Source: Gammaproteobacteria bacterium
GTDB lineage: Bacteria > Pseudomonadota > Gammaproteobacteria > Thiohalomonadales > Thiohalomonadaceae
Direction of reading: 5' to 3'
Assembly (NCBI GenBank): GCA_003252455.1
Contig: QKED01000006.1
Location: forward strand, 1-64,000
Length of the DNA stretch: 64,000 nt
Below are positions 2,019-27,083 of this stretch, one piece after another. Under the pieces are notes generated by a model that had not been told where the DNA came from, made no database searches, and was given only the letters and a program-made list of their open reading frames with translations. Position 1 is the stretch's first letter. Each line of letters begins with the position of its first letter. The position numbers and the translations under genes were made by a program.

Positions 2019-3824
2019 TCACACCCCGTCGCCCCCCAAGGGGCCGAGTGCCAGCTCGGCCCCTTTTTCATGCTCGTCGAATTCATCCGGCCCCAGGGCC
2101 AGCGCGTAGGTGTCGGCCAGCTCGCCCAAGTCCAGGTCGCCCACCAGGTCGAACCCCGCCCCGCTCAGCTCGGCCCCCAGCGCCGCGCCCGGCTCCCCCT
2201 GGAGTGCCTCCACCGCCTGGAGTCGGTCAGCGTGCGTCGTCTCCAGCCCTGCCTGGGCGCGCTTCTCTTCGAGGTGCTTTTGCAGGCGCTTCTGCTGCCC
2301 TTCGAGGCGGGTCTGTTCCATGTCCGCAATCACGGACTCGGGCAGCGCATCGTGGCGCTCCACCTGCATGGCAAAGCAGACAAAGCGCTGGTGAGTGTCG
2401 AACACCCACACCTTGTCCCACGAGAAGAGGTCGTACTCGATGTGCACGCTGGTCTTCTCGTAGGCGCTCAGCTCCGCCGCCTGGAAGGTGCGCCCGCGCA
2501 GCTTCACTCGGCTATGGCTCACCTTGCGCACCTCCTGGATGCGCAGCAGCGCCTCGGCGGGCAGCTCCAGCGGCACGCGCTGGAGCTGCGCCTCCCACAC
2601 CTCGATAGGCGCACGCCCACCGAGGCTCGCCTGGGGTGCCCGGTTATAGGCGTCGATGTAGCGGCCCACCCGCTCCAGCGTCTCCTCGAAGGTGGGCAGC
2701 ACCAGGTCGCCGCGCTTGATCCGCTCCTGCATCCGGCGCAGGCCGTCATCGGTGCGGTCGTGCCCGCAGTAGGTGTTAAAGCTCTTACCCAGCCGCGCCT
2801 CGAAGTGCTTGAAGAACCCCTCCACCAGCCCCTTGCCGCGGGCATTACCCGGCAGGGCAAAGACCGGACGGATGGATAGCCGGGCCAAAAAGCCGGTGCT
2901 CTCGTCGGTCATCATGCGGTTCTTGAACCCTGAGCCTGGGTCGACATGGATCGCCGCCGGGACGTGGTCCGCATTGGCCAGGGCGCGGCTCAGGCTCAGC
3001 AGCGTGTTGAGCCCAGACTCCGCCTGCCACAGGTACCAGCCGGGGATGTAGTGCGAGCGCCAGTCGATCCACGGCGTGAACTCAGGGCGGAACACATTGC
3101 CGCTGCGCGGATGGGCGCAGTACCAGTCACAGGTGTGGCCGTCGCCCTCGTACATGAACCCGACGGGGATCTTGGAGTAGTCCCGCATCACATACGGGCG
3201 GGTGTTCTGGTCGTGGTGGTGCTGACCCATGCGATACCTCGAATAGCGGCCCATCGACTCGGGCAGGGTGTTCAAAAAGGCGCGCACCCGTTGGTTGGTG
3301 GCGCTCTCGTAGCCGTCTTCTCTTAGCCAAAAGCCGATGCTCCCAGCGTCCGGCTTGGACGGCGTGAGCCACATCGCCAGGGCGTACTGCTCCCAGCCGT
3401 ACCACTCGCGCTTGCGCCCGGTGTGGTTGTCCGCCAACCCCTCGGCCCCGCGCCGCGCGTAGTCCGCACACCAGCGCAGCAGCGAGGCGCGCGACGGGCG
3501 GGCATTGCGGCTGTTCTTGCGTGCCAGCGCCTCGGCGGCCTGGTGGATGGCCGGGATCTCGCCCGCCCAGTGCTCCAGCAGCCAGCTCACGGCGGCGTTG
3601 TTGCTCATCGCCTTGAGCGTGGCCAGCGCTTCCACCCGCTTCACCAGCACCTCGCGGTGCGCCGCGCGCACCCGGTTGCCCTTGGGCAGGCTCTCCAGCT
3701 TCGGGCGCTGCTGCTCGGCAAACTGCGCCGCCAGCCACTTGCGCGCCTCGCGGGGCAGATCCAGCTCGGTGCCCAGGTGGGGCATCGGCAGCATGTGGGT
3801 CGGGTTGAGGGCGCTCTGGCTCAT
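2019..3824 (-). CDS. MuA-like DDE transposase
   Basis: The 601-residue protein contains an N-terminal DNA-binding part, an RNase H-fold core and a C-terminal Mu-type domain. The catalytic triad is visible: Asp near residue 227 in FMYEGDGHTCDW, Asp near 294 in AAIHVDPGSGFKN, and Glu near 334 in GKGLVEGFFKHFE. It is somewhat shorter than Mu A (663 residues). The ATG starts 1 base after the upstream gene's stop, behind AGGTG. It should bind the end repeats such as those at 27027-27070 and carry out replicative transposition. The C-terminus (residues ~500-601) is acidic and variable, where the MuB and ClpX contact region lies in Mu. Confidence 0.93.
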   Translation of the reverse strand: MSQSALNPTHMLPMPHLGTELDLPREARKWLAAQFAEQQRPKLESLPKGNRVRAAHREVLVKRVEALATLKAMSNNAAVSWLLEHWAGEIPAIHQAAEALARKNSRNARPSRASLLRWCADYARRGAEGLADNHTGRKREWYGWEQYALAMWLTPSKPDAGSIGFWLREDGYESATNQRVRAFLNTLPESMGRYSRYRMGQHHHDQNTRPYVMRDYSKIPVGFMYEGDGHTCDWYCAHPRSGNVFRPEFTPWIDWRSHYIPGWYLWQAESGLNTLLSLSRALANADHVPAAIHVDPGSGFKNRMMTDESTGFLARLSIRPVFALPGNARGKGLVEGFFKHFEARLGKSFNTYCGHDRTDDGLRRMQERIKRGDLVLPTFEETLERVGRYIDAYNRAPQASLGGRAPIEVWEAQLQRVPLELPAEALLRIQEVRKVSHSRVKLRGRTFQAAELSAYEKTSVHIEYDLFSWDKVWVFDTHQRFVCFAMQVERHDALPESVIADMEQTRLEGQQKRLQKHLEEKRAQAGLETTHADRLQAVEALQGEPGAALGAELSGAGFDLVGDLDLGELADTYALALGPDEFDEHEKGAELALGPLGGDGV

Positions 3825-3825
3825 C

Positions 3826-4866
3826 TCAGCGCACCTGATGGGTAAACAGCAGCCACTTCTCTTGCGCCTCGGCCTGCTCGTCCTGGGTCAGCAGCGGCTG
3901 ATGGGTCGGCTCCGGGCGGTGGCGCGCCTCGGTCTCGTCGAGGATGCGCTGGCGCACCCCCAGCGCGCGCCCGATGAGGCTCTCCAGCGCCACCATCAGC
4001 GGCCCGGTGGCGGCGCGCATCTGGTCGTCGAACTCGCTCGGTTCGTCGCTCAGGTGCTGCCCCTGCATCAGCTCACTAAAGGCCGTATCCAGGCGCGTGA
4101 GCAGCTCCTCACTCGCCAGCCCCACGGCGGCGGACTCGGTGCGCGCCCGGCGCACCTCCAGCGGCAGGGTGCCGCCGTCCCAGCGCCGGGGCGGCTCGCG
4201 CTTGGTCAGCGCCTCCTGCGCCTTGGCCAGCTCGCTGGCGTAGTGGTCGAGCTGCTTCTCCTTCTGCTTAATCACCGTCATCGCCTTGCGGAACTGGGCC
4301 AATGGCAGCTCGATCAGCTCATCCAGCTCCTCGGTGTTGACCATCCGCTCGATGCTCTCCGGCGTGAGCGAGGCGAGGGCCGGTTGCTTGCTGGGGGGAA
4401 GTTGTCCGATCGATCGGACAACTCCCTCGGGCAGGCTCCCGTACATGCGCGCCACCTGCATATCCTCATAGACACGTTGGCGCTTCAGGCCCTGGTCTTG
4501 GATCCAGCCCGTAAAGGAGTTGGCGGGCAGCTCCTTCTGTTTGAGCAGGTAGGCGATCCCACGGCCCACCATGCGCAGGGCCGCGTCGTCGTTGGCGCGG
4601 TTCACCCAGGCATCCAGCTCCGCCCCGGCCAGGGGCTGGCCGTCGCGCATCGGCAGGTAGGCCTCCAGGGGCTTCTCGTCACCGGCGCTCAGCTCGCCCC
4701 CCTCGCTCACCAACAGCGCGTGGCGCAGGGCGCGCTCGGCCAGGGAGAGCAGCGGGTCGTCATCGGTCGGCACCGCAGGCAGCGCCGCCTCGGTGGTGGG
4801 GGGCTCGATAACCTCGGCGTCGGTGACCGGCTCAGGGGGAGTGACGGGCTTCTTTCTGGGGGGCAT
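3826..4866 (-). CDS. Early phage protein, possibly ParB/DUF3102-like DNA-binding
   Basis: The 346-residue protein is the first gene of the transposition block, directly before muA. It has a proline-rich N-terminus (MPPRKKPVTPPEP), a middle helical segment with an HTH-like stretch (SFTGWIQDQGLKRQRVYEDMQVARMYGSLPEGVV, about residues 125-158), a probable coiled coil (KAMTVIKQKEKQLDHYASELAKAQEAL) and a charged C-terminal half. The middle resembles ParB/KorB or DUF3102-type phage proteins, but the similarity is weak. A 22-bp perfect palindrome lies inside its coding sequence (4401-4422). Function unknown; a DNA-binding role is inference. Confidence 0.72.
   Translation of the reverse strand: MPPRKKPVTPPEPVTDAEVIEPPTTEAALPAVPTDDDPLLSLAERALRHALLVSEGGELSAGDEKPLEAYLPMRDGQPLAGAELDAWVNRANDDAALRMVGRGIAYLLKQKELPANSFTGWIQDQGLKRQRVYEDMQVARMYGSLPEGVVRSIGQLPPSKQPALASLTPESIERMVNTEELDELIELPLAQFRKAMTVIKQKEKQLDHYASELAKAQEALTKREPPRRWDGGTLPLEVRRARTESAAVGLASEELLTRLDTAFSELMQGQHLSDEPSEFDDQMRAATGPLMVALESLIGRALGVRQRILDETEARHRPEPTHQPLLTQDEQAEAQEKWLLFTHQVR
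4401..4422. promoter_or_regulatory. 22-bp perfect palindrome inside an early gene
   Basis: The half-site GTTGTCCGATC is followed immediately by its exact reverse complement GATCGGACAAC, giving 11 bp per arm with no central spacer. It lies in the coding sequence of the 346-residue early protein and encodes part of GVVRSIGQLP. This is suited to a dimeric DNA-binding protein or an intragenic control site. The binding partner is unknown. Confidence 0.55.
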
Positions 4867-4867
4867 G

Positions 4868-5197
4868 TCAGTGCACCTGGTCTGGGGTGGGTGTGATCGG
4901 GACCAGGCACGCCTGGTTGGCGATGCGCACCTGGTTGCTCAGCAGGCCTAGGGCGATCCACATCGTGGGGTCGAGACGCATGGGGCTATCCATGGTGCGC
5001 TGGGTGGTGCCCGTGGTTGTGGCTCTATGGGCAGGGTGGTCGCCCTCATTGATGTTGAACGAGGCCAACCAGCCGATGTTGTGCGTCTGGCACACCGCGT
5101 TTACCTGGCGCAGCAGCGGTTCGAGCACCTCGTCATAGACCTGCTCTTTGGTCAGCGGCAGTCCGGTCTCTGCACCTTCATGCGTGGCTTCACTCAT
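4868..5197 (-). CDS. Small phage early protein, function unknown
   Basis: I chose the ATG at 5197 (MSEATHEGAETGL) because AGGAG lies 8 bases upstream; a GTG at 5206 would sit on the ribosome-binding site. The 109-residue soluble protein contains a helical segment VYDEVLEPLLRQVNAVCQTHNIGWLASFNI and a C-terminal MWIALGLLSNQVRIANQA region. No family recognised. Its stop is 1 base before the next gene's start, so it is in the early operon, and a divergent gene starts at 5288. Confidence 0.65.
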   Translation of the reverse strand: MSEATHEGAETGLPLTKEQVYDEVLEPLLRQVNAVCQTHNIGWLASFNINEGDHPAHRATTTGTTQRTMDSPMRLDPTMWIALGLLSNQVRIANQACLVPITPTPDQVH

Positions 5198-5287
5198 CTC
5201 TATCACTCCTACTGTGCAAATTGGCGGGGAACCGCCTCGGTGCTAGGCTGTGGGTTACCAAGCTCACACCAGACCGAGGGGTCCCCC

Positions 5288-5725
5288 ATGAAACGTTGGT
5301 TGTTAAAAATGCAAGCCTGGGTCGGCGCACAGGCGTGGTGGATGACCCTGCTGGGTCTCGCCATCGCCGTGGCTCAGGCCATTGCCCAATGGGGAGAGCT
5401 CTTCGTGTTTGAATTCGGCATCGTCCAATGGTTGGTACTCGCCTTTGCTGTGGGTATCGTCTGGCTCAAAGAGCTGCAAACCCGTGAGTTGATCGCGATG
5501 AACAAACAGCTCACCACGCACCTGCTCGACTGCCACCGCGAGGGGCTCGAGCGCGTCATCGCCGATATGGGCTCGGGCAAGGTCGCGGACCCCCTGCCCA
5601 CCTACGCCCACCTCCAGCGCTACCTCGACAAGCTCAGCGAGCTGCGCGGTGACGACAACGCCGCCTCCGATGAGCTGCTCGCCGGGCTGCACGAGCTGGT
5701 CAAGCGCAACCTGCGCCACCCCTGA
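5288..5725 (+). CDS. Small two-segment membrane protein on the opposite strand (candidate moron)
   Basis: The protein starts MKRWLLKMQAWVGAQAWW and is 145 residues. Two hydrophobic segments (WMTLLGLAIAVAQAIA, about residues 18-34, and IVQWLVLAFAVGIVWL, about 44-60) are followed by a soluble cytoplasmic-type C-terminus with coiled-coil character (LQRYLDKLSELRGDDNAA). GAGG lies about 9 bases before the ATG. It is transcribed against the flanking early genes, which is typical of genes expressed from the prophage; superinfection exclusion or envelope modification is possible but unproven. A weak promoter candidate TTGGCG-17-TAGGCT lies near 5222-5250. Confidence 0.65.
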   Translation: MKRWLLKMQAWVGAQAWWMTLLGLAIAVAQAIAQWGELFVFEFGIVQWLVLAFAVGIVWLKELQTRELIAMNKQLTTHLLDCHREGLERVIADMGSGKVADPLPTYAHLQRYLDKLSELRGDDNAASDELLAGLHELVKRNLRHP

Positions 5726-5729
5726 GCGC

Positions 5730-5963
5730 TCACGAGCGCCAGCTCCAGTGGTCCATTGCCAGCGCCACCGCCTCGGCGCGGCTGTCGGCGCTGCCCACCG
5801 GGGCAAAGGCCCCGTCCCGCACCCACCAGTAGCTCCCCCCTCGCCAGGCCGAGCAGGCCCAAATGCGGTAGCCGCTCTCCCGGTGGCGCCACGCCTCGAT
5901 GTCGCGTGAGGGCGGCGAGGGGATGGGCTCCCAGTCGGGGCCAGGTGGTGGGCGCTGATACAT
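5730..5963 (-). CDS. Small tryptophan-rich phage protein
   Basis: This 77-residue protein (MYQRPPPGPDWEPIPSPPSRDIEAW) is rich in Trp, Arg and Pro and has a compact core with RIWACSAWRGGSYWWVRDGAF. No membrane segment or signal peptide is seen. The start is 1 base downstream of the previous gene's stop on the minus strand. No family recognised; part of the leftward accessory set between ner and the transposition genes. Confidence 0.55.
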   Translation of the reverse strand: MYQRPPPGPDWEPIPSPPSRDIEAWRHRESGYRIWACSAWRGGSYWWVRDGAFAPVGSADSRAEAVALAMDHWSWRS

Positions 5964-5964
5964 C

Positions 5965-6213
5965 TCATCCCAGTTCGCGCAGCTGCTCGGCGAGCGCGTG
6001 GTGGCGTCCCAGCAGGTTCTTGATGCTGGTGCTTGCCCGCTTGCAGTCTGGTGTCGGCATGTTCACCGCAACGGTGTAGTGCCTGAGCAGACTGATGTTG
6101 CAGTTGATGATCGCCTGCTCGGTTTCGAGCTGCGCGCGCCGCTCCTTCATCGTCATGCGGCTGCGTGCCAGCGCATAAGTCCGCTCGATGAGATCCTGTG
6201 ATTGCGTGTCCAT
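5965..6213 (-). CDS. Small helical phage protein
   Basis: The ATG at 6213 (MDTQSQDLIERTYALARSRM) is preceded by AGGAG at a good distance; the frame is open further upstream but without a comparable site. The 82-residue product is helical and charged (MTMKERRAQLETEQAIINCNI) with coiled-coil character. No domain recognised. It sits 8 bases downstream of the next upstream gene, consistent with one early transcript. Confidence 0.6.
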   Translation of the reverse strand: MDTQSQDLIERTYALARSRMTMKERRAQLETEQAIINCNISLLRHYTVAVNMPTPDCKRASTSIKNLLGRHHALAEQLRELG

Positions 6214-6221
6214 CGTGGCTC

Positions 6222-6410
6222 CTACTTCTTCTCTACTTCCAAACCGGCCATGAGCGTGCCGCTGAAGCACCCTCCCTTACGGCCCTTGCGTGTGCGCCAT
6301 CCGCTCGCGCACTTGTCGATGTCGCTGCCGTTGCCGCCACGCTCGCACTCTGAACAGTCGACATAGAGCCGCCCCTTGTCGTCGCGGTTGCTGAACTTCG
6401 CCTTTTTCAT
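6222..6410 (-). CDS. Small cysteine-containing basic phage protein
   Basis: The 62-residue protein (MKKAKFSNRDDKGRLYVDC) has four cysteines (CSEC, DKC, GGC) and many Lys, Arg and Gly residues, suggesting a small metal-binding or nucleic-acid-binding fold. GAGAGG lies just upstream of the ATG. It is in the leftward early gene series. Function unknown. Confidence 0.6.
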   Translation of the reverse strand: MKKAKFSNRDDKGRLYVDCSECERGGNGSDIDKCASGWRTRKGRKGGCFSGTLMAGLEVEKK

Positions 6411-6448
6411 GGTTACCTCTCGTTAACGCTGCGTGATGCAGCCTTTAA

Positions 6449-6907
6449 TCACCCTTCGAGCTTGCGTCGAAGGGCGTTGATATCCCGGCCCAGGCGACCC
6501 TGGGCCACCAGCTTCTGCCCCAGCTCAAGGGCCACTCCATCGCGCGCATCCACCAACTCGAAGCCGAGCGCCTGTACCAGCGCCAGCAGCGGCAGGTGGC
6601 TCTCCAGCGCCTGGCAGAAGGCGGGCAGGTAGCGCATCGGGAACTCGTGGTACTCCTTGCTGGCCGCTGTCCAGGCGTTGAGCTGGCGCAGGGTGATCGG
6701 CTTCTCCAGCTCGGGCAGGGCGAGGTTCATCCGCTCCACTACCCGCTCCCGGCTCAGGCCCCGGCGCTTGCCCTCGCGGATCGCATGGTTCAGCGCCCCG
6801 AGCAGCTCGAAGTGGATGTCCAGGTCCGGCGCCGCCTCGGGCGGCTCGGCCAGTTGCTGGAACAGATCGAGCTGATCGCTGGTAGTTTTTGCCTTGCGTC
6901 TGGCCAC
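6449..6907 (-). CDS. Conserved Mu-like early regulator candidate
   Basis: I place the start at GTG 6907 (ARRKAKTTSDQLDLFQQL) with GGAGG 10 bases upstream; upstream residues in frame look unconstrained. The 152-residue protein contains LDIHFELLGALNHAIREGKRRGLSRERVVERMNLALP followed by ITLRQLNAWTAASKEYHEFPMRYLPAFCQAL, which looks like a conserved phage protein I have seen in Mu-like early regions. The tandem helices around ERVVERM and TLRQLNAW are compatible with DNA binding (CII- or HTH-like). Its exact role is not known to me. Confidence 0.68.
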   Translation of the reverse strand: MARRKAKTTSDQLDLFQQLAEPPEAAPDLDIHFELLGALNHAIREGKRRGLSRERVVERMNLALPELEKPITLRQLNAWTAASKEYHEFPMRYLPAFCQALESHLPLLALVQALGFELVDARDGVALELGQKLVAQGRLGRDINALRRKLEG

Positions 6908-6969
6908 TGACCTCAGGCCTCCATCCGCCCTAGACTGCTCACCACGCAATCACACACAGGAGCGTTGTC

Positions 6970-13901: not shown

Positions 13902-14386
13902 TCTACGCCACCGCCACCGGGATGTTGGACTTCGGCGCCATCGAGCTGTCGCAGCTCGTGGCGCAGGAGAACGCCAGCGTGACCGGTGCTCTGCTCATCC
14001 GCACCATCGAGGGCGGTGATCGCTCGGCCTATACGGCAGACGAGATTGCCGCCGCCGATGAGGCGGTGGCGCTGCTCAACCGCGTGTTGGAGCGTGCCAG
14101 CCGGGTGATCGACAGTTACCTGACTCAGCGTTACACCCTGCCGCTGTCCACTGCACTGGTGTCCAGCTCCGGCTTACCCCAGGTGTGCATGGACATCGCC
14201 CGCTTCTTGCTCGCCAACGACACCCCGACCGACACCATCACGCAGCGCTACGACCGCGCCCTGCGCATGCTGCGTGATCTCGCCGATGGGCGCTCCAGCC
14301 TCGGCGAGGAGGACCGCAGCACCGTCACCAGTGGCCGCGTGGTGCTGCGTACTGGCATCAGCGGCCACGACTGGGACGCCTACTGA
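13898..14386 (+). CDS. Mu gp36-like (DUF1320) head-tail protein
   Basis: The 162-residue product shows the DUF1320 signature: MIYATATGMLDFGAIELSQL, AVALLNRVLERASRVIDSYL, YTLPLSTALV and VCMDIARFLLAND, with YDRALRMLRDLADGRSSLG. Mu gp36 is thought to act at the neck/head-tail connector. It overlaps both neighbours by a few bases, so it is tightly coupled in the late operon. Confidence 0.83.
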   Translation: MIYATATGMLDFGAIELSQLVAQENASVTGALLIRTIEGGDRSAYTADEIAAADEAVALLNRVLERASRVIDSYLTQRYTLPLSTALVSSSGLPQVCMDIARFLLANDTPTDTITQRYDRALRMLRDLADGRSSLGEEDRSTVTSGRVVLRTGISGHDWDAY

Positions 14387-15567
14387 TGGATGCCCTGAGC
14401 GAGCTGGAGCAAGAGCTGCTGACGGCGATTGAGGCCAGCACGCTGGCCTCGCGCACGCGCCACGTCGGGCTGCTGCCCGACCTGACGCCAGAGACGCTCA
14501 AACAGCTGCGCACCGTCTCCCCTGCAATTTACTTGGCCCTGAGCCAGGTCGAGCCGGATGGTGACCGCTGGACGGTCTCCTTCGAGCTGCTGCTGGTCAC
14601 CAGCAACGCCAGAGGCGTCGAGGCCATCCGTCACGGCGACCGAGACACCATCGGCATCTACCAGCTGATCGCCGGGCTGCTCTCGGTGCTGCGCGCCACG
14701 CCTGGGTTTACTCCAGGTCGCGCTCGCTACGACCGCAGCCCCGTGTGGATCGCCCTCGGCCTGGCCGTTGCGGCGCTGCCGGTCACCACGGCCATCCAGG
14801 CGCCGGGGGAGATTGACGAGGCGGACCTGGCTGACTTCCTAGTCTTCCAGGCAGAGCACACCCTCGGCGACATCGATAGCCCAGAAGCAACCGATCTGGT
14901 CGCTCTCCATCAGACAGAAGCGGCGGACTACCCGTTTGTACTGATACGCCTGAGCGTGACCTCTCTGGCTGAGGGCGTCGATATCCCCGATGCGGGCCTG
15001 CCGGTACCCATCTGGCCGGACCTGTCTGCCAATGAGTGGGATGCCACACAGGGAGGAGGCGCGCGGACGCCATCACTCTACGACGCACCACCGAGGGTGT
15101 TGTATGACGTCGACGACTACCACAATCTCGCGCCCCGCTTCTCTCACGGTCAGACTGATGTGGCGATCACGTTTGTCTATGCGTTCGACACCTCTGGAGA
15201 CATATTTAAGTCTTCGTTCATTGGCGACCCATACATCCAATGTCAAATAAGTGTATCCCCCACCACTATCTCTCTGCGTATTGAGACCGTCTCAGGGCGC
15301 GTGACGATCAGCCACCCCTACGCACAAAGCGGATTCTCTGTGATGACAGTGTGGGTCCGTCAAACTGCGATAGAGCTGTGGATTGATGGTGAGCGCCAGA
15401 TGCAACAGATCCGATCATCTGTGGGTATTCGAGCGGATGTTGGGATCTCCAGCATGCAGATAGGTAACGGATCCGCACTACAGCATTTCGAGCTGCGTGA
15501 GAACGTGGTGGACACGGCACAGATCTCACAGTGGCATGCCGCCCTCGCCGACGAGTATCAGTTATGA
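14386..15567 (+). CDS. Mu gp37-like (DUF1834) protein fused to a C-terminal LamG-like domain
   Basis: The first ~210 residues fit DUF1834/Mu gp37 (LEQELLTAIEASTLASRTRHV, WTVSFELLLVTSNARG, GIYQLIAGLLSVL). The family is normally about that long. Residues ~215-393 add a beta-sandwich: RVLYDVDDYHNLAPRF, DVAITFVYAFDTSGDIFKSSF, VMTVWVRQTAIELWIDGERQMQ, VGISSMQIGNGS, as in concanavalin/LamG domains. Base composition in 15110-15560 is visibly less GC-rich than its neighbours, suggesting later acquisition. A carbohydrate- or surface-binding appendage on the tail is inferred. Confidence 0.78.
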   Translation: MDALSELEQELLTAIEASTLASRTRHVGLLPDLTPETLKQLRTVSPAIYLALSQVEPDGDRWTVSFELLLVTSNARGVEAIRHGDRDTIGIYQLIAGLLSVLRATPGFTPGRARYDRSPVWIALGLAVAALPVTTAIQAPGEIDEADLADFLVFQAEHTLGDIDSPEATDLVALHQTEAADYPFVLIRLSVTSLAEGVDIPDAGLPVPIWPDLSANEWDATQGGGARTPSLYDAPPRVLYDVDDYHNLAPRFSHGQTDVAITFVYAFDTSGDIFKSSFIGDPYIQCQISVSPTTISLRIETVSGRVTISHPYAQSGFSVMTVWVRQTAIELWIDGERQMQQIRSSVGIRADVGISSMQIGNGSALQHFELRENVVDTAQISQWHAALADEYQL

Positions 15568-23441: not shown

Positions 23442-24512
23442 ATGCCGTTTAATCGCCCATCACTCCCCGATCTCATTGCACGTATCCAGGCCGACATCGA
23501 GGCGCGCATCGCTGGCGCCGCACCCTCACTGCGCCGCTCAGTCCTGGGCGTGATCGCCCGCGCACTGGCGGGCGTTACTCATGGGCTGCATGGACATCTG
23601 GATTGGGTCTCGCGCCAGATTCTCCCTGACACAGCGGAGCACGACTACCTGATCCGCCACGCAGCGTGGCGTGGAATCACACCACTCCCCGCGGCGGCGG
23701 CAGTAGGGCAGGCGCAGGCGCTTGGAGTCGATGGCAGCGTGATCCCCGTCGGCACGCTCTACCTGCGTGCCGACGGCCTGCGCTACCTCACCACGTCAGA
23801 GGCGACCGTCGCCGGAGGGAGCGCTACGCTCACTCTCCAGGCAGAGACCGCCGGTCAGGCGTCAAACACAGGCCCTGGTCTCAGCCTGACGGCTGTGTCC
23901 GCCGTCCCAGGGGTGCAGAGCCGTGTCACTCTCATCGGAGATGGACTGACAGGAGGTGCCGACGCCGAGGAGACCGAGGCGCTTCGTGCCCGCCTGCGTC
24001 AACGCGTCCAGTCCCCGGCGCGAGGTGGCCATGATGATGACTATGTGGCGTGGGCCCTTGAGGTCCCAGGTGTCACTCGGGCATGGGCGTACCGGCTGTG
24101 GACCGGGGCCGGTACAGTCGGCATTTTTGTGATGCGTGACTTGGACGACTCCCCCATCCCAGATAGTGCCGAGGTGGCTGCTGTGCAGGCACACATCGAC
24201 ACCCTGCGCCCGGCCACTGCTGCGCCGACTGTCTATGCCCCCATCGCGGCGCCAGTGGATATGACCATCCAGCTAGAGCCCAATACCACCGCTGTGCAAT
24301 CCGCCGTGCTTGCCGAACTGGCGGACCTGCTCGCACGCGACGCTGAACCCGAGGATGGTACTGGGAGTGGGACTATTCCATTGAGCCGCATCCGCGAAGC
24401 CATAAGCTCAGCTGATGGCGAGAGTGACCACGCGGTCTCGCTGTCCACCGACGTGACTGTCGCAAAAGGCGAGATTGCCACCCTCGGCACCGTGACCTGG
24501 GGCGCCCTCTGA
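23442..24512 (+). CDS. Baseplate protein J-like (Mu gp47)
   Basis: The 356-residue protein shows the baseplate J family pattern: LPDLIARIQADIEARI, YLIRHAAWRGITPLPAAAAVGQ, ADGLRYLTTSEATV, GQASNTGPG, RLRQRVQSPARGGHDDDYVAWALEVPGVTRAWAYRLWTGAGTVGIFVM and a C-terminal repeat with GTIPLSRIREAI. It is a major wedge component joining spike, wedge and fibres. Confidence 0.92.
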   Translation: MPFNRPSLPDLIARIQADIEARIAGAAPSLRRSVLGVIARALAGVTHGLHGHLDWVSRQILPDTAEHDYLIRHAAWRGITPLPAAAAVGQAQALGVDGSVIPVGTLYLRADGLRYLTTSEATVAGGSATLTLQAETAGQASNTGPGLSLTAVSAVPGVQSRVTLIGDGLTGGADAEETEALRARLRQRVQSPARGGHDDDYVAWALEVPGVTRAWAYRLWTGAGTVGIFVMRDLDDSPIPDSAEVAAVQAHIDTLRPATAAPTVYAPIAAPVDMTIQLEPNTTAVQSAVLAELADLLARDAEPEDGTGSGTIPLSRIREAISSADGESDHAVSLSTDVTVAKGEIATLGTVTWGAL

Positions 24513-26032
24513 TGCAAGCGCCTGACTACCTACAGATGCTCGTGGCGCTGCTCCCGAGCGGGCCTCTGTGGGCACGTTTTACCGCACCTGGAACGCTGGC
24601 GTACCGGCTACTGGACTCTCTGTCTGAGGAATTCGCGCGCATCGACGCGCGTGCCCGCGCTCTGGTCGATGAGTGCGACCCGCTGACGACCGTTGAGCTG
24701 TTGAGCGATTGGGAGCAGTTTGCGGGACTCCCAGACGCCTGTGTCGCGTCTGAGCAGACCAGTGAGCAGCGGCATTCCGCTCTGGTCTCCAGGTTGAATG
24801 GTGAGACCATCCCAACGCCTACGAATATCATCGCCGCCGCTAATGCAGCAGGGTACGACATCGAGCTGACTGAGTACCGGCCCCATCATGTCGACGACGA
24901 TGTGATGGTCCCGCTCTATACCAACCCATGGGCCCATGCGCTGGGCATACGAGGTCCGCGCACAGCGGTCGAGTACGCGACCGTGGCCGACCACTGTCTA
25001 GTGCCTCTCGCGTCGTGGGGGGTGGAGGCGCTGGAGTGTGCTGTCGACCAAGTGCTACACGCGCACATGGCGCCGATCTATCGGTATGGGTGGGATTGGG
25101 ATGGGGCGTGGTTCGAGGTGTCAGCACCAACTGGCAGATGGTACGACATGGCATGGTCACCTGAGCTGGGTCTCTTCGTGGCCGTCGGATACACCGTGTC
25201 CGGTGGCGGTAACCTTGTCGCCACATCACCGGATGGTGAAGTGTGGACGGTACAGTCAGCGCCGGTTGGCGATTGGTCTGGCGTGGCCTGGTCCCCCGAG
25301 GTTTGTCTATTTGTCGCCATAGGATACAGTTATCTCGACTACCCGGTCGTCATGACCAGCCCTGACGGGGAGACCTGGACTGCTCACAGTGCGCCTCCCG
25401 GCGGCTGGTCTCACCTGATCTGGGTGGCGGATCTTGGACTCTTCCTTGCCACTGGATATGCCGATCCAGAATACACCGCTATGACCAGCCCTGACGGGGA
25501 GACCTGGACTGGCGTCTACAGCGAGACCGATCTCGATGGCGGACTCTGCTGGAACCCGGATAGAGGCGAGCTGCTGGCGCTGGATTACATCGGCACACAC
25601 GTATATATCAGCCGCGACACGAGATCTTGGACGTCAGTCGGGACGATTGGTGCGCCCGGGTATGTGAACGTCCTCTACCACGCCGCAGCACAGCTCTACG
25701 TCGCGTTCAGCCTGACGCAGCAACCCCAGCCAGCCAATGGCGCCGTCTGGACCAGCCCGGACGGGCAGGTCTGGTCGCCCTGCTCAACCCCAGACGGCGC
25801 GTGGGCGGATGGCATCTACGTCGACGCGTTCGGCGAGGTCGTCCTGGTCGGCTACGGCGGCGCCATTCGCTCGTTCGATACCGTGACGTGGGAGTCCGTG
25901 ACTGCCGGGTTGCCAGATCTCTCCCCCGACCGCTGGAGCTGCATCGGCTGGTCTCCTGAATTGCGCCGTCTCGCCGCACTCTCCGACGCACTCGGCGGCA
26001 CTGCCGCTGTCCTCTCTACAACAGCCACATGA
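24512..26032 (+). CDS. Mu gp48-like (DUF2313) baseplate protein fused to a beta-propeller
   Basis: Residues 1 to ~195 fit DUF2313/Mu gp48 (YLQMLVALLPSGPLWARF, LLDSLSEEFARIDARARALVDECDP, WEQFAGLPDAC). The family normally stops near there. Residues ~195-506 add about seven repeats of ~43 residues such as WSPELGLFVAVGY...TSPDGEVWT, GVAWSPEVCLFVAIGY...TSPDGETWT and WSPELRRLAALSD; the strand WFEVSAPTG before the first full repeat could close the last blade. This is the BNR/kelch-like propeller seen in sialidases and adhesins, here probably a receptor- or glycan-binding unit. No Asp-box catalytic set was recognised. Confidence 0.82.
   Translation: MQAPDYLQMLVALLPSGPLWARFTAPGTLAYRLLDSLSEEFARIDARARALVDECDPLTTVELLSDWEQFAGLPDACVASEQTSEQRHSALVSRLNGETIPTPTNIIAAANAAGYDIELTEYRPHHVDDDVMVPLYTNPWAHALGIRGPRTAVEYATVADHCLVPLASWGVEALECAVDQVLHAHMAPIYRYGWDWDGAWFEVSAPTGRWYDMAWSPELGLFVAVGYTVSGGGNLVATSPDGEVWTVQSAPVGDWSGVAWSPEVCLFVAIGYSYLDYPVVMTSPDGETWTAHSAPPGGWSHLIWVADLGLFLATGYADPEYTAMTSPDGETWTGVYSETDLDGGLCWNPDRGELLALDYIGTHVYISRDTRSWTSVGTIGAPGYVNVLYHAAAQLYVAFSLTQQPQPANGAVWTSPDGQVWSPCSTPDGAWADGIYVDAFGEVVLVGYGGAIRSFDTVTWESVTAGLPDLSPDRWSCIGWSPELRRLAALSDALGGTAAVLSTTAT
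25352..25511 (+). repeat. 31-bp exact direct repeat within the propeller coding region
   Basis: The segment beginning ATGACCAGCCCTGACGG (25352-25382) recurs exactly at 25481-25511, 129 bases or 43 codons later, encoding MTSPDGETWT in two adjacent blades. Such identity at the DNA level points to recent blade duplication or recombination. Confidence 0.75.
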
Positions 26033-26039
26033 GGCCGAA

Positions 26040-27020
26040 ATGAAACGCCAATACTACTCCAGCACCAGCGAAACCCCTCCGTCCCCTCCCTCTGCGCCAG
26101 CCACCGGCTATCCCACTTATGGTAGCCCTAGCGGGGGCGTAGCCCCCACTACCCCAGGCCCGCATTGGTTCCACATGATCACCGAGGAGCTCCAAACAGT
26201 CATCGAGGTCAGTGGCCAGACGCCTGACGCTGCAAACCTCGACCAGCTCCTTGAAGCGATCAAGCGCTCAGGCGCTGCGCACGTCACGAGCACCACCGCC
26301 TCTAGCACCACGCTCAATCTATCGAATACCGGAATGGTTTTGGTGAATGCGAGCAGCGGTAACATCACCGTGCACCTGCCCGCTGCATCCGACCTGGCCC
26401 ACGCCGAGTACCAGCTCGTTCGCACCGACAGCAGCGCCAATACCGTCACCATCGCGGCCGACGGCTCGGACAGCGTCGAGGGCCTGTCTTCCCGCTCACT
26501 CCCTATCGGCGCCCGCTTCACGCTGGTCTCTGATGGCGTATCTGCATGGCGCTGGCCTCACTCCGACCCTACCCCGGCTGGCGTGGTCGCCTATAGCGCT
26601 GCACTCAACGTACCCGATGGTTGGCTGGAGTGTAATGGCGGCGACATCCTGCGCAGCGCCTACCCACGTCTGTTTGCAGCCATCGGAACCCACTATGGTG
26701 TAGGGGATGGCACGACTACGTTCGGATTGCCAGATTTACGTGGTGAATTCATCCGTGCGCTTGATTCAGGTCGACTAATCGACCCTGAACCCGCTCGCGA
26801 GCTAGGCAGTGCGCAGACCGATGCGTTTGGTGCGCATAATCATATGAGCGGTTTTGTCGGGACGTATCGTGGGAACTCAACCGGGGTCTCCGGCGGTCTC
26901 ATCAAGGTGGGTACGACTGATCTGACGATTACCTCGGTATCACCAGATAGCTTCCCAGATGCTGGCGGCTCCGAGACCCGCCCCCGCAACGTCGCGTTAA
27001 TGGCGATTATCCGGTTCTAG
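26040..27020 (+). CDS. Tail fibre with C-terminal collar domain
   Basis: The 326-residue protein has a Pro/Ser-rich N-terminus (SSTSETPPSPPSAPATGYP), a stretch HWFHMITEELQTVIEVSGQTPD common in prophage fibres, and a C-terminal phage-collar domain: GVVAYSAALNVPDGWLECNGGDILRSAYPRLFAAIG, GLPDLRGEFIRALDSGR, FGAHNHMSG, and SETRPRNVALMAIIRF. It is the last phage gene. No fibre assembly chaperone or invertible fibre segment follows it before the phage end. Confidence 0.85.
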   Translation: MKRQYYSSTSETPPSPPSAPATGYPTYGSPSGGVAPTTPGPHWFHMITEELQTVIEVSGQTPDAANLDQLLEAIKRSGAAHVTSTTASSTTLNLSNTGMVLVNASSGNITVHLPAASDLAHAEYQLVRTDSSANTVTIAADGSDSVEGLSSRSLPIGARFTLVSDGVSAWRWPHSDPTPAGVVAYSAALNVPDGWLECNGGDILRSAYPRLFAAIGTHYGVGDGTTTFGLPDLRGEFIRALDSGRLIDPEPARELGSAQTDAFGAHNHMSGFVGTYRGNSTGVSGGLIKVGTTDLTITSVSPDSFPDAGGSETRPRNVALMAIIRF

Positions 27021-27026
27021 AACTGG

Positions 27027-27083
27027 TCGCCGCAGTTTCGCAAACCAATCGCCGCAGTTTCGCAAACCAATCGCCGCGCTACA
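27027..27083. repeat. Right prophage end: tandem 22-bp transposase-type repeats and terminus
   Basis: Two exact 22-bp copies (27027-27048 and 27049-27070) read, on the minus strand, TTGGTTTGCGAAACTGCGGC plus GA, followed by a partial third copy TCGCCGC to 27077. The TGCGAAA core matches the C-GAAA part of the 22-bp Mu end-site consensus. The phage probably ends at ...CGCTACA (27083), giving a TG...CA-type terminus. The repeats lie 6 bases after the fibre stop and directly before the interrupted host gene. Confidence 0.8.

Follow-up and report, generated by a model that had tools for sequence, protein, structure and literature searches.

In the baseplate of bacteriophage Mu, one copy of the wedge protein gp48 (BW3) is present in each of six wedges, and gp48 residues 133-155 form a fiber-docking loop that anchors the fiber (PMC11915804). 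Mu-like gp48 proteins (PF10076, also DUF2313 or YmfQ) are normally ~195-260 aa long and end right after this domain. Separately, phiKZ gp131C (4GBF) is a seven-bladed beta-propeller located at the baseplate periphery, for which receptor binding has been proposed, as yet unconfirmed, and the baseplate receptor-binding protein of phi11, Gp45, contains a five-bladed propeller with a cavity that could hold GlcNAc (PMC4901313). Here we describe a Mu-like prophage gp48 that has an additional 314 residues beyond its domain, predicted to form a seven-bladed propeller. It is encoded within a 64,000-nucleotide stretch of DNA (the window; contig QKED01000006.1, positions 1 to 64,000) from a Gammaproteobacteria bacterium (assembly GCA_003252455.1).

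The gp48 gene (24512-26032; 506 aa) follows gp47 (Baseplate_J, 23442-24512), with the gp48 start codon overlapping the gp47 stop codon (TGATG), and adjoins a tail-collar fiber gene (26040-27020; 326 aa); gp48, the features within it, and the fiber gene are all on the forward strand. This gp46-gp47-gp48-fiber order is that of Mu-like phages, as is the character of the N-terminal 192 residues (24512-25087): residues 10-185 match Pfam PF10076 (Phage_Mu_Gp48; 65.3 bits, cut-off 37.4), residues 4-193 match PHROG 203 ('baseplate wedge subunit'; E=1e-42), and the domain matches the Mu gp48 structure 9ki1 ('Baseplate protein gp48'; E=1e-8) and is mostly helical in an AlphaFold2 model. These matches bear out the suggestion of a first-pass annotation, made from the DNA alone, that the domain is a normal DUF2313 domain. 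By alignment to the Mu fiber-docking loop, the putative docking stretch is at about residues 149-172 (24956-25027). Although the protein does not end at the domain (~200 aa), such an ending is usual for gp48 and not strictly defining; the extension is an added domain, and DUF2313 membership of the N-terminal domain therefore stands.

We note two other features of the window. Directly after the fiber stop codon are two tandem copies of CGCCGCAGTTTCGCAAACCAA with 22-bp spacing (27028-27070); this sequence is absent from the rest of the window (expected 0), and the pair may be transposase-binding end repeats at the right end of the Mu-like prophage. Also, positions 14386-15567 code for a 393-aa Gp37-like protein (Mu tail terminator region; PF08873, 21.9 bits, below cut-off), the C-terminal ~190 aa of which have no family match and by eye resemble a LamG/concanavalin-type domain; it is probably the 'LamG fusion' mentioned in the first-pass annotation.

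Searches of Pfam, PHROGs, NCBIfam, and PDB sequences gave no significant match to the C-terminal part of gp48 (residues 191-506; 25082-26032). In the AlphaFold2 model (m346ca14563b0, built from a 51-sequence alignment; mean pLDDT 86, pTM 0.65), this part has 28 strands arranged as seven four-stranded blades in a closed ring with a 1+3 'velcro' closure. The model thus supports the earlier proposal of a propeller, with ring closure and seven blades as the prediction; the orientation of the propeller and the DUF2313 domain relative to each other is uncertain at this pTM. The propeller proper spans residues 199-503 (25106-26020), and the interval of 25080-26032 first assigned to it needs trimming at its start, with 25080-25105 still belonging to the gp48 domain. 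There is no linker between the two domains, and the propeller starts ~27 residues past the putative docking stretch. The opening strands of successive blades begin at residues 209, 255, 298, 345, 385, 430, and 474, a mean spacing of 44 that agrees well with the seven ~43-residue repeats originally noted, and both of the motifs described then (WSPELGLFVAVGY and TSPDGETWT) are present in the propeller. Blades 1 to 3 correspond to residues 209-249 (25136-25258), 255-292 (25274-25387), and 298-335 (25403-25516); blades 4 to 6, at residues 345-378 (25544-25645), 385-424 (25664-25783), and 430-463 (25799-25900), are degenerate in sequence, and a blade HMM places five of the seven blades above threshold. 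Blade 7 (residues 474-502; 25931-26017) has three strands and is predicted from the model and strand order to be completed by a closing strand at residues 200-204 (25109-25123), which is in register with the propeller relatives.

Foldseek matches the model to seven-bladed propellers with a probability of 1.00. Among PDB entries the best match is YCF48 (E=7e-12, TMt 0.74), followed by many WD40 and other propellers, and among viral models the matches include phage proteins with chaperone auto-processing domains, DUF6242 proteins, a tail fiber, and a cyanophage 'baseplate wedge initiator'. The whole propeller aligns in register with eight viral relatives, to which it is 34-37% identical, and such a full-length alignment shows that the repeat does not arise by chance. 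The 31-bp exact repeat reported for two blades is indeed present, in the Asp-box segments of blade 2 (25352-25382) and blade 3 (25481-25511); given the same peptide, the probability that two independent copies would have all codons in common is ~9e-4. A Pfam F5_F8_type_C match (E=0.03) and ANAPC4_WD40 matches on relatives were judged to be repeat noise.

A fused gene of this type could be inert or artefactual, either a decaying prophage gene or two genes lacking the stop codon between them, and both its prophage location and the sequence degeneracy of blades 4-6 would be compatible with that. But another Mu-like prophage of this assembly (contig C87, 131753-133261; loci L005 and L038) encodes the same gp48-propeller fusion; the two copies are 69% identical overall, each with an unbroken frame and seven blades, and because the second copy has the same fusion, a missing stop or misassembly can be rejected. 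Moreover, codon comparison of the two copies indicates that blades 1-6 are under purifying selection (dN/dS ~0.14-0.17), and the surrounding prophage retains transposition, head, sheath, tube, hub, spike, baseplate, and fiber genes. We therefore regard an inert or artefactual fusion as highly improbable.

Comparison of the two prophages at the DNA level reveals a single block of 77% identity, at 24911-26773 in the window, with only short patchy matches elsewhere. This block runs from the last part of DUF2313 through the propeller into the fiber gene, most of which it covers. Protein identities vary greatly along the two genes: residues 1-133 of gp48 are 38% identical, residues 134-192 (including the putative docking stretch) 68%, blades 1-2 73%, blades 3-6 96%, and blade 7 54%, with the fibers mostly at 69-88% and falling to 35-41% near the tip (the last ~80 aa). 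At silent sites the departure is sharper still, with dS of 0.14 in blades 3-6 versus 1.3-2.2 elsewhere in the gp48 gene. The maximal low-divergence segment (25310-25873; 94% identity) has a score of 394, compared with no more than 95 in 2000 shuffles. Plain codivergence of the two prophages does not account for these dS values, which point instead to a recent exchange of blades 3-6; there appears to have been recent gene conversion within the propeller, with the tract in common with the second prophage at 25400-25873. The raised protein identity in the remainder of the 77% block fits an older shared cassette, although silent sites outside of blades 3-6 are saturated, and stronger constraint could account for part of it. 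Thus, the variation between the prophage copies is one of sequence exchange, not of altered blade number. It is possible, if somewhat doubtful, that the docking region, propeller, and fiber constitute a movable recognition cassette, and that prophages in the same genome re-sort blades 3-6 by conversion while keeping seven blades. If so, a baseplate receptor head would be reshuffled with its ring closure intact. The prophage pair, with its visible exchange tract, provides a natural test of how such heads evolve.

Propellers on gp48 are rare. None is present in 24 DUF2313 proteins encoded in other genomes (same order, class, and phylum), all of which end 1-31 aa past the domain, and among 80 DUF2313 loci on viral contigs, a propeller is found only in the two copies from the source genome (both of which are carried by IMG/VR contigs) and in none of the other 78, in surveys that sampled nearer relatives rather than the whole family. 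The absence from ordinary gp48 proteins implied by the first-pass annotation thus holds for these homologues. The broad DUF2313 alignment offers no conserved stretch for scanning, and two single-protein scans yielded few loci. In 73 of the viral relatives the extension past the domain is 27 aa or shorter; at one locus (L226) it reaches 113 aa, and the related loci L157, L159, and L160 have gp48 extended by at least 225-407 aa. (L224, in which the DUF2313 match stops early, was left out of this judgement.) The extension in L159, a 601-aa DUF2313 protein (L159:2492-4297), matches a GTA-type head spike fiber domain (NCBIfam GTA_spike_fiber; 113 bits). Among named phages, those of Bordetella are nearest, and gp48 of PY223 is 195 aa with no extension. 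The gp48-propeller fusion is not reported in titles or abstracts of the DUF2313 papers listed by a literature search.

Relatives of the propeller itself are, by contrast with its presence on gp48, widespread on phage tail proteins, and the window gp48 is a new arrangement of known parts. A total of 314 stretches of viral contigs encode such relatives, and among the 77 new loci examined from these, DUF2313 is present on none of the propeller proteins (0/77). Their N-terminal parts include DUF2793 and PHROG tail-fiber, tail, and minor-tail families, and related propellers are also situated inside a phrog_376 tail protein. At two loci (L097 and L098) the gene for a propeller protein lies not far downstream of a gp47-gp48 pair; L098 has two tandem tail-fiber-like genes (3188-5059 and ~5060-6927), each with a C-terminal seven-bladed propeller. 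The blade HMM identifies 65 runs of exactly seven blades in the viral relatives; most of the shorter runs are truncated where contigs end, and doubled sets make up some of the longer ones, from which we conclude that blade number is essentially fixed. The suggestion that blade number may vary, raised initially because of the 31-bp repeat, therefore does not hold, either for these relatives or for the two seven-bladed prophage copies. In four relatives (L099, L080, L085, and L116) there are two propeller sets per chain (14 or 15 blades, or a pair of seven-blade runs). A related propeller with a near-perfect ~41-44-aa repeat is also found in another genome of the same class (L008; G001:C153), in a 537-aa protein with an N terminus without a known family.

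Asp-box-like turns in the propeller raise the question as to whether it is a glycan-cutting enzyme, such as a sialidase or other Asp-box hydrolase, which would make gp48 a depolymerase. One relative is weakly similar to GH33 sialidases (E=1e-4), and a GH74 xyloglucanase is among the Foldseek matches. However, sialidases are six-bladed and the propeller here has seven blades and falls outside of GH33, it has just eight arginines and no enzyme family match in Pfam or NCBIfam, and the similarity is confined to repeat motifs common to any Asp-box propeller. An enzymatic role is thus very unlikely.

The best-supported reading, and in our view a probable one, is that the gp48 propeller acts in close-range receptor binding or adhesion. 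Its relatives are on tail fibers and other tail proteins, and at other loci a spike-fiber domain occupies the same end of gp48, a convergent use of this terminus; together with the phi11 and phiKZ precedents, these make plausible the receptor-binding head that the first-pass annotation proposed, a role reached by analogy. To the observed fusion, predicted fold, rarity, and conversion tract we would add, by inference, ligand binding and a two-step role in infection. The gp48 C terminus would have gained a complete closed propeller from a widespread phage tail-appendage module. With one gp48 in each of the six wedges of Mu, six propellers per virion are expected beside six fiber anchors, presumably displayed at the surface if the analogy with Mu holds. 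The neighboring short collar fiber would make first contact with the cell, and the ring of six propellers would then bind, at short distance, a sugar or protein on the cell surface, a grip that could hold the baseplate flat and help to trigger contraction, with the docking region, propeller, and fiber acting as one exchangeable recognition unit. The C terminus of gp48/BW3, the simplest wedge protein of contractile tails, would then offer a further attachment site for a recognition domain, in addition to the fiber.

A different role, in which the propeller serves the baseplate structurally by bracing the fiber-docking site or adjacent wedges and makes no host contact, seems unlikely, albeit with several observations in its favor. 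The absence of a linker after the gp48 domain, ~27 residues past the putative docking stretch, would suit a brace, and a docking partner would also be compatible with the block of raised identity common to the docking region, propeller, and fiber. YCF48, whose fold is the closest among solved ones, serves in photosystem assembly and binds peptide, not a sugar receptor. Furthermore, the occurrence of similar propellers inside other virion proteins, such as the phrog_376 tail protein, means that the fold alone is not proof of receptor binding. Nonetheless, most gp48 proteins function without a propeller, and the relatives are on many unrelated tail proteins including the L098 tail fibers, for which a portable head is a better fit than a brace.

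The window gp48 can be compared with several described appendages. The gp48 of L159 and its relatives L157 and L160 has a large C-terminal appendage as here, but in other phages and with an unrelated domain. phiKZ gp131 similarly has a C-terminal seven-bladed propeller, although in another type of phage; it is not among the Foldseek matches listed for the window propeller, and to our knowledge its anchor protein is not of the DUF2313 type. In phi11 Gp45 an N-terminal strand closes the last blade, as in the window propeller, but its five blades are within a trimeric stem-platform-tower protein, unlike gp48 (PMC4901313). A further likeness is to the Asp-box-like module of viral tail proteins, which has the same repeat (W..V.WSPEL.LFVAV...MTSPDG..WT), seven blades, a full-length alignment with the window propeller, and a weak likeness to DUF6242. 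This common but poorly annotated module is now tied to a specific position within a baseplate of solved structure: in 77 of 77 loci it is on tail fibers or other tail proteins, whereas in the window it is on DUF2313.
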